DNA from: a virus
IMG/VR virus record: IMGVR_UViG_3300044620_000614
Location: 1-64,000 of that record
Length of the DNA stretch: 64,000 bases
Strand: one strand, 5' to 3'
Part shown: piece by piece, positions 8,810 through 22,588 of the stretch
Layout: every line of letters starts with the position of its first letter
Position numbering within the stretch: position 1 is the first letter of the stretch
Translations under genes and position numbers: made by a program
The notes under the pieces: model-generated
The model's input: the letters and a program-made list of their open reading frames with translations, nothing else
Told to the model about the DNA's origin: nothing
Database searches by the model: none

Positions 8810-9394
8810 TCAATCTAGTTCGGGCATTCCCCGCATTTTCATTTTGAATTTTTTACCCATTCCCGAGGATTGTACTTGGGCAGGATCAAATGTTCTTATA
8901 CCGGATGTTGGAATATAACCAACTGCGGATACTGATTTTTTACCAGTTGAGTGTGGCATTACTGATATAAACCCGTGAGGTCCAGCACTCATACCAGAAA
9001 CTTTATGTGTCTTTTTACCACTCATCAAATAGGTGCTACCGTCTGAATGAGGAACTAAGTAATGTCTTTCCAATTCACCCTCATGCTCATCACCAAACTT
9101 TGGTTCTTTTTGTAAGAACACTGCAACTCCTTTGCCACCCTTCAAATGACCACTTATTGCATCATGAGAGGCTTGTGCTGCTTTTTGTCTTGCCTCGCCG
9201 GTTACTTCTGCGGCGATATTTCTGGGACGGGGTGCAACCTGTGCTTTTGATTTGGCAACATCTCCAGCAAACACGCCGCTCGCATCAGTAGCAGCAGTGT
9301 AAGCCTTGGGTGCAGACTTTCTTGCTTCTTCTAGTTTTTGTTCAATTAATTGGGTTACTTGTCTGAATACAAAAAAGTCGATTGCCATTGCCAT
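8810..9394 (-). CDS. Unrecognised protein, possibly virion-associated
   Basis: 194 aa; not recognised. Starts MAMAIDFFVFRQVTQLIEQK after an AGGAGTA ribosome site. The first 30 residues form an amphipathic helix; Ala/Lys-rich middle; the last third (HYLVPHSDGSTYLM onwards) is Gly/Ser-rich and probably beta. A CTAAATAG box lies about 25 nt before the start, suggesting late expression. Confidence 0.7.
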   Translation of the reverse strand: MAMAIDFFVFRQVTQLIEQKLEEARKSAPKAYTAATDASGVFAGDVAKSKAQVAPRPRNIAAEVTGEARQKAAQASHDAISGHLKGGKGVAVFLQKEPKFGDEHEGELERHYLVPHSDGSTYLMSGKKTHKVSGMSAGPHGFISVMPHSTGKKSVSAVGYIPTSGIRTFDPAQVQSSGMGKKFKMKMRGMPELD

Positions 9395-9457
9395 TACTCC
9401 TGTTATTTACAACTATTTAGTACTCCGGGAACCTCGACCTTTATAGATAAAGAACCG

Positions 9458-9478
9458 GACTCTTTTGGAGTCCGGCTC
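9458..9478. terminator. Hairpin terminator flanking the rRNA-like element
   Basis: CCGGACTC and GAGTCCGG pair around a TTTTG loop. Read on the minus strand it is followed by TTCTTTATC, like an intrinsic terminator, so it could end an RNA that starts at the late box near 9607. Confidence 0.6.
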
Positions 9479-9483
9479 CCCTG

Positions 9484-9561
9484 ACGGTCGAAAGGTAGCG
9501 AAATTCCTCAAGCGCATGAATAGCGTAATCAATGGTTTCCAGTGTTCGCGGCACTGTCTCC
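9484..9561 (+). ncRNA. 23S rRNA domain IV-like fragment
   Basis: On the plus strand the stretch reads ACGGTC, then AAGGTAGCGAAATTCCT (9492-9508), then GAATAGCGTAAT and CTGTCTCC. These match in order the universally conserved 23S rRNA segment around E. coli positions 1930-1990. The small H72 hairpin is missing and an extra CAGTG/CACTG hairpin is added. No other rRNA sequence is present, so this is not a ribosomal gene. The minus-strand late box at 9600-9607 and the hairpin at 9458-9478 would instead yield an RNA antisense to 23S rRNA. Strand and function are undecided. Confidence 0.7.
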
Positions 9562-9599
9562 TAATCGATCCCCGGTATTCAAATCCCTCCAACCACCTC

Positions 9600-9607
9600 T
9601 ATTTATA
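9600..9607 (-). promoter_or_regulatory. T4-like late promoter box
   Basis: TATAAATA on the minus strand, the T4/cyanophage late -10 consensus. It lies upstream of the antisense side of the rRNA-like element and of the gene starting at 9394. Confidence 0.55.
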
Positions 9608-9616
9608 ATAGGCAAG

Positions 9617-9829
9617 TTATCTGGCTCTAACATTTATTCGTTTTGCTCTGCGAATATTCTCTTGATTTGCAGTGCTGACCATGACCAGTTCTGGAGCAGT
9701 CTTGTGTGCCCAATCCATAAAACCCATCATTGGCTTTGCTTCTGAGCAACCAACACAGGTATCTACGCCAGGAAGTGCTTCCTGACGAGCCTTGGGAATA
9801 TTCTTTTCACAATTCTTACACTTAGCCAT
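9617..9829 (-). CDS. Small zinc-finger protein, DksA/TraR-like
   Basis: 70 aa. CKNCEKNIPKARQEALPG followed by VDTCVGC gives the Cys4 zinc finger spacing of DksA/TraR C-terminal domains. The coiled-coil arm of DksA is absent, as in minimal phage members. It may touch host RNA polymerase or simply be a Zn finger; the residues alone do not decide. Confidence 0.7.
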   Translation of the reverse strand: MAKCKNCEKNIPKARQEALPGVDTCVGCSEAKPMMGFMDWAHKTAPELVMVSTANQENIRRAKRINVRAR

Positions 9830-12876: not shown

Positions 12877-12930
12877 TCAAGCAGCCATTGCCATTGGTGC
12901 GGCAATCAATTTTTGCAACTGTTTATTTAC
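12877..12930 (-). other. tmRNA proteolysis-tag reading frame
   Basis: Resume codon GTA at 12930 by alignment with the E. coli GTCGCA-AAC context. The frame reads VNKQLQKLIAAPMAMAA then TGA at 12877. The hydrophobic -MAMAA end fits recognition by ClpXP-type proteases, as with known -LAA/-VAA tags. The resume codon is inferred. Confidence 0.8.
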
Positions 12931-13168
12931 GACACTTGTTACCCGTGTCGGGTATCTCCTTCTTCATTACTCTGCGTCAATCGAAGCCAGTTCAGCCCCT
13001 TAAATACCTGAAGCCCGGGCTTCAGGAATTGCCCCCTGCAAAGAGGACTTTACTCGCCATCTCTAATAGACTTGCAGAATCTATTTCGGTTAGGCTAATG
13101 GAGCCGAGGGGAATCGAACCCCTGTGTTGTTCGCATTTCAATCCAATATCAACAATACCAAAGATTAT

Positions 13169-22514: not shown

Positions 22515-22519
22515 AAGAA

Positions 22520-22568
22520 ACAACCTCCTTTTGAGGGGAGGTTGTCGGACCGGAGATGCTATCTCCGG
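22520..22568 (-). terminator. Two tandem terminator hairpins
   Basis: ACAACCTCC/GGAGGTTGT (22520-22545) and CCGGAGAT/ATCTCCGG (22550-22568). On the minus strand the first is followed by TTTCTTTATAAA. They end the transcript of the genes above 22.58 kb. Confidence 0.75.
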
Positions 22569-22588
22569 TGGGGTTGTAAGTATTTATA

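Follow-up and report, generated by a model that had tools for sequence, protein, structure and literature searches.

The window analysed here, the 64,000 nucleotides that make up the whole stretch of DNA under study, belongs to a virus record of 73,552 bases, and its UvsX places the phage near the T4-like phages of Methylophilales and Pelagibacter. The element occupies the intergenic interval 9395–9616, between two ORFs that are both encoded on the minus strand, which makes the strand antisense to rRNA the co-directional one. It lies upstream of ORF 8810–9394 in the same direction, and a DksA-like zinc-finger protein is encoded on its other side (9617–9829, minus).

On the plus strand, positions 9484–9561 carry three blocks of 23S rRNA in their native order, equivalent to E. 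coli 1919–1943, 1964–1978 and 1989–1997. The first of these (block A) equals E. coli 1919–1924 plus 1927–1943, giving 23 identical positions out of 27 over 1918–1944, and includes the 17-mer AAGGTAGCGAAATTCCT (9492–9508, plus), which is the longest exact match to proteobacterial 23S rRNA in the whole 64 kb. Block B matches 1964–1978 at 13 of 15 positions and block C matches 1989–1997 at 9/9; in neither case was a match as good found in 300 shuffles. The hairpin that separates the first two blocks in E. coli 23S rRNA (1945–1961), which we take to be H71 by standard numbering, is absent. The alignments with E. coli and proteobacterial 23S rRNA thus bear out a preceding sequence-only reading of this DNA, which had recognized domain IV blocks in order, including the 17-mer; its observation that a hairpin had been deleted also stands, although the hairpin it named H72 is H71.

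That no other rRNA lies nearby was likewise confirmed by an Rfam search of the window, which returned just tRNAs and a permuted tmRNA. The latter, of the two-piece type, lies at 12877–13159 (minus); a tmRNA of permuted type has also been reported for the related Methylophilales phage Melnitz (PMC9004378). Over the element itself, no Rfam family reached its gathering threshold. A resemblance to group II intron domain V was rejected, as it scored 19.5 bits against a threshold of 53 bits and its matching part was the terminator hairpin described below. A 23S gene or gene fragment was also rejected: H71 is missing, there is no other rRNA, and the promoter and terminator are on the antisense strand.

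Distribution and conservation of the element

Pattern scans recovered versions of the element from 26 other viral contigs, five near-identical and 21 more divergent, in ~17 divergent lineages and several genomic contexts. The search in related phages, proposed with the sequence-only reading as a check, therefore had a positive outcome, and the presence of the element in both groups of contigs rules out local contamination. The tetranucleotide TCCT, which was outside the search pattern, directly follows one searched motif in 7/7 true homologues. In viral contigs, looser patterns retrieved nothing but chance matches (L022–L033). In the bacterial and archaeal genomes scanned, the short-gap pattern had a single match, a true 23S gene containing assembly Ns; cultured phages yielded solely 23S contamination or weak, unrelated partial matches, and the nearest of them (Melnitz, HTVC008M and P-HM1) do not contain the element.

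Conservation extends to other positions that the search patterns did not include. Block B is matched at 12–14 of its 15 positions in most lineages (0–2 of 300 shuffles as good), and is weak or degraded in L008, L020, L038 and L040; block C is 9/9 in six rows of the comparison. In the close relatives L001, L002 and L070 the body of the RNA is 94–100% identical to the window, versus 64–88% for the adjacent coding sequence 8810–9394. Four carriers (L038, L039, L044 and L045) have an unrelated hairpin inserted exactly at the position of H71 in 23S rRNA. The DksA-like gene adjoins the element in the window, L007 and L059, the neighbours otherwise vary, and in many carriers the RNA is housed in a tRNA cluster. 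A more divergent version, with ATTACGCTATTCATGC followed by TTTCGGTAACTTAGGACTGTCATAG and no evident terminator, was noted on the minus strand of L062 near 7229; it retains positions 1925–1926, which are changed in all others.

Strand and boundaries of the predicted RNA

On the minus strand, an exact T4-type late promoter box (TATAAATA, 9600–9607) precedes a predicted RNA start at ~9595, and an intrinsic terminator at 9447–9480, comprising the hairpin GGAGCCGGACUC/GAGUCCGGUUC and a T-run (TTCTTTA), was detected on the minus strand and not on the plus strand. The late box and terminator described in the sequence-only reading as framing the antisense strand are therefore where it placed them, and they bound a predicted small RNA of ~150 nt (9447–9597, minus). 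Each of the seven exact late boxes in the window immediately precedes either the start of an ORF or a small intergenic RNA unit. A second such unit is at 22515–22580 (minus), with TATAAATA at 22581–22588, two hairpins and a T-run, followed by another late box and an ORF start; it is a candidate for a second late small RNA.

The same late box, or a variant, stands at the equivalent place in most lineages; by inspection, sigma-70-like sequences take its place in L008 and L129. A minus-strand terminator (hairpin plus T-rich run) was found in 17/17 of the T4-type lineages tested and at 20 of 23 loci overall, against a rate of 4% in shuffles, whereas plus-strand terminators were found at 8 of the 23. 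The terminator stems are mostly richer in G·U pairs on the minus strand, with A·C at those positions on the plus strand (L038 and L044 are exceptions), and in the window these G·U pairs occur on the minus strand only. The closing helix P1 of the window has a predicted energy of −17.3 kcal/mol on the minus strand versus −4.5 kcal/mol on the plus strand. From the minus-strand box and terminator, the G·U bias and the stability of P1, we take the product to be the ~150-nt minus-strand RNA, antisense to 23S rRNA and probably made late.

Predicted structure and pairing with 23S rRNA

Two helices recur in the predicted structures: P1, formed between the 5' end and the nnGACCGTC segment that precedes the terminator, and P3, which involves the complement of block B (B'). 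Since the variable parts could not be aligned, a column-wise pair count on the MAFFT alignment was uninformative and pair permutation was used instead; real pairs beat permuted pairs for both P1 (44/20,000) and P3 (54/20,000) on the minus strand. P3 has nearly the same stability on the two strands and so does not discriminate between them. From lineage to lineage the predicted P1 co-varies, whereas the anti-23S blocks remain constant.

Read 5' to 3' along the minus strand of the window, the 5' strand of P1 (GGUGGUUGGAGG, 9586–9597), supported by P1 energy on each strand and by pair permutation, is followed by C' (9553–9561), the full complement of 23S ~1989–1997, and by B' (9514–9528), complementary to 1964–1978 at 13 of 15 positions with one G·U pair and one mismatch (at C1967), and shared with P3. 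The A' core (9492–9508), an exact 17-mer complement of 1927–1943, and its extension GACCGU (9484–9489), the complement of 1919–1924, come last. The extension is exact in the window and nearly invariant in the family, and also provides the 3' strand of P1, a role that the permutation result supports. Beside GACC, the variable 'nn' faces C1925/U1926 and either abuts P1 or forms part of it; this placement can account for its variability and for its seldom matching 23S rRNA.

When the minus-strand RNAs were matched to complete enterobacterial 23S rRNA, the best duplex of 18/18 started within 1907–1920, ran past 1978 and spanned the 1918–2000 region; in 17 of the 18 it was better than every shuffle, and the plus strands landed elsewhere. 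Co-folding with a beta-proteobacterial 23S segment gave ΔΔG values between −27 and −54 kcal/mol, with z from −5.7 to −11.5. In the predicted hybrids inspected (window, L035 and L044) H71 remains folded and loops out of the junction, and in L044 the RNA's own hairpin faces it. The apparent deletion of the hairpin is thereby accounted for, as pairing by an antisense RNA can skip a hairpin of its target if that hairpin keeps its fold. Across 37 23S sequences from several phyla the target is invariant at 1918–1944 and nearly so at 1964–1978. Complementarity to a target encoded elsewhere is therefore conserved, as in a trans-acting antisense small RNA.

Pairing alone does not explain the mismatches to 23S rRNA that recur at A1918 and C1967. 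By eye, changes within the blocks showed no bias towards those compatible with wobble pairing and gave antisense no advantage over sense. Both observations may reflect a second function or a constraint imposed on B' by structure. With the minus-strand terminators, late boxes, G·U pairs and predicted hybrids taken together, the late RNA antisense to the 23S core offered by the sequence-only reading is favoured, and we consider it highly probable that the RNA is an antisense RNA pairing with 23S rRNA.

Other scaffolds carrying the anti-23S core

A further scan located loci in which the same anti-23S core is set in a different scaffold. Additional loci with the 16-mer are about as numerous as chance predicts, and for this reason just the three whose matches extend further (L124, L131 and L135) were counted as real; L128, L129 and L130 are less certain, with L128 and L130 possibly real. 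The L124 and L131 loci belong to temperate-type phages and are flanked there by genes of head or terminase type, with the block of L131 presented as a loop closed by GTCATA/TATGAC; the L135 locus sits within a tRNA cluster on a contig of 344 kb. These three loci suggest convergence on the 23S target.

Other features of these loci were also recorded. The RNAs of L124 (3420–3720, minus) and L131 (4900–5180, minus) start with AGGAGGTGATCC or GAGGTGATCC, the complement of the 16S 3' end, with the anti-23S block coming later, and Streptococcus phages, SM1 among them, have this 5' part again upstream of their terminase gene. In L128, a skipping-rope RNA (Rfam RF02924; 4928–5024, minus) shares its tRNA cluster with the anti-23S 16-mer.

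Discussion

The putative RNA resembles the bacterial and phage small RNAs that act in trans by base-pairing in being small and structured, in having its own predicted promoter and intrinsic terminator, and in presenting its target-complementary segments single-stranded or in loops. The targets of those RNAs are mRNAs or other small RNAs; here, in contrast, the predicted target is the rRNA of the catalytic core, approached through two or three blocks placed around a hairpin that stays folded. To our knowledge, rRNA is not the target of any natural base-pairing RNA in bacteria, and no precedent was found in Rfam, in the cultured-phage collection or in a limited literature search for a natural phage antisense RNA against rRNA. 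The predicted mode of action is thus that of a base-pairing small RNA, with a target that matches nothing in Rfam or the literature searched. The nearest analogues are the rRNA-pairing snoRNAs. Like archaeal and eukaryotic C/D or H/ACA RNAs, the element is structured and antisense to conserved rRNA, and some snoRNAs pair on both sides of an rRNA hairpin, as predicted here; the element, however, belongs to bacterial viruses, C/D or H/ACA boxes were not noticed in it, and it has no known partner protein. It also shares residence in tRNA clusters with rnaC and rnaD, small stable RNAs of the T4-type phage T4, although neither these nor the T4 tRNA cluster match 23S 1918–2000 in either orientation.

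In our preferred explanation, to which we assign a probability of roughly 60%, a structured RNA made late from the minus strand would act in trans on host 23S rRNA and inhibit ribosome assembly or subunit joining. Transcription from the T4-type late promoter to the intrinsic terminator would yield a discrete, structured small RNA. Its A' segment would pair with 1919–1943 (the 3' strand of H69 and the adjoining strand of H70), B' with 1964–1978 and often C' with 1989–1997, H71 remaining folded and looped out of the hybrid. Pairing with 1919–1943 and 1964–1978 would open H69 and the neighbouring strands, a state incompatible with the native domain IV core, the site of intersubunit bridges. As the hybrid could not coexist with that core, the RNA would most likely capture nascent or partly unfolded 23S rRNA or free 50S subunits, and 50S maturation or subunit joining would be blocked during infection. 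Conservation, strand, boundaries, structure and the predicted hybrid are results of computation, whereas expression of the RNA, formation of the hybrid in vivo and the outcome of pairing are inferred.

Given pairing with 23S rRNA, an inhibitory consequence has close to an even chance. The region is sensitive in principle, since a synthetic PNA against H69 inhibits growth of E. coli (Kulik 2017, as cited in PMC7038079); that PNA, as described there, is likewise antisense to a neighbouring 23S region, and differs in being synthetic and short rather than a natural RNA. A role in the control of translation, of either sign, would agree with the late box and with the location of the RNA in tRNA/tmRNA islands, and a late block of ribosomes is not obviously useful because the phage needs translation late. 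The wider proposal, that a family of structured phage RNAs with more than one unrelated scaffold hybridizes to the universally conserved 23S core (1919–1978) on both sides of H71 and halts subunit joining or the maturation of 50S, is tentative, its odds falling a little short of even.

The antisense RNA might instead help, preserve or redirect ribosomes as a snoRNA-like chaperone or protector. The rRNA-chaperone snoRNAs have pairing blocks around a folded hairpin, an arrangement matched by the two blocks that flank one here, and the RNA sits among tRNA and tmRNA genes that support phage translation; the predicted hybrid is nonetheless so stable that its release would be difficult unless a helicase took part, and no helicase is linked to the element, so we regard this role as unlikely. 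Slightly less likely is that the RNA guides a phage or host nuclease, a modifier or RNase III to 23S rRNA or its gene. Its structured scaffold and invariant target-complementary segments would suit a guide, and a long perfect duplex would suit RNase III as a substrate, but no partner gene is common to the different contexts, and the exact skipping of H71 fits an RNA rather than a DNA target.

A functional plus strand, forming a mini domain IV without H71 as a decoy for a methyltransferase, a ribosomal protein or a 23S-cutting toxin, is improbable. It would draw on the preservation of rRNA sense sequence on that strand, the similar stability of P3 on either strand, the hairpin at the H71 position in L038, L039, L044 and L045, and the additional plus-strand terminator of some lineages; most lineages, however, have their promoter box and terminator on the minus strand, and the G·U pairs of the terminators and P1 of the window are specific to that strand. 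The same promoter, terminator and G·U evidence disfavours the sense mimic that the sequence-only reading had entertained. An rRNA-sensing leader or attenuator, suggested by the position of the RNA upstream of and co-directional with ORF 8810–9394, was rejected as very improbable, as neighbouring genes differ among lineages and in L009 and L021 the next gene has a late box of its own directly after the terminator. The relic of homing into rRNA that had also been considered, in whose favour block A overlaps part of the I-CeuI target, and assembly contamination both have a negligible chance, being contradicted by conservation above that of the neighbouring coding sequence in close relatives and by ~17 lineages with unrelated flanks and a conserved promoter, terminator and co-varying helices.

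The late antisense RNA remains the preferred reading, and it suggests that direct base-pairing to rRNA is a way for phages to interfere with ribosomes or to re-tool them. If confirmed, it would represent a new route of phage control over host translation, and 23S domain IV and 50S assembly intermediates would have a natural ligand. With a target that is identical in E. coli and hardly varies among bacteria, it would also provide a natural example for antisense approaches.
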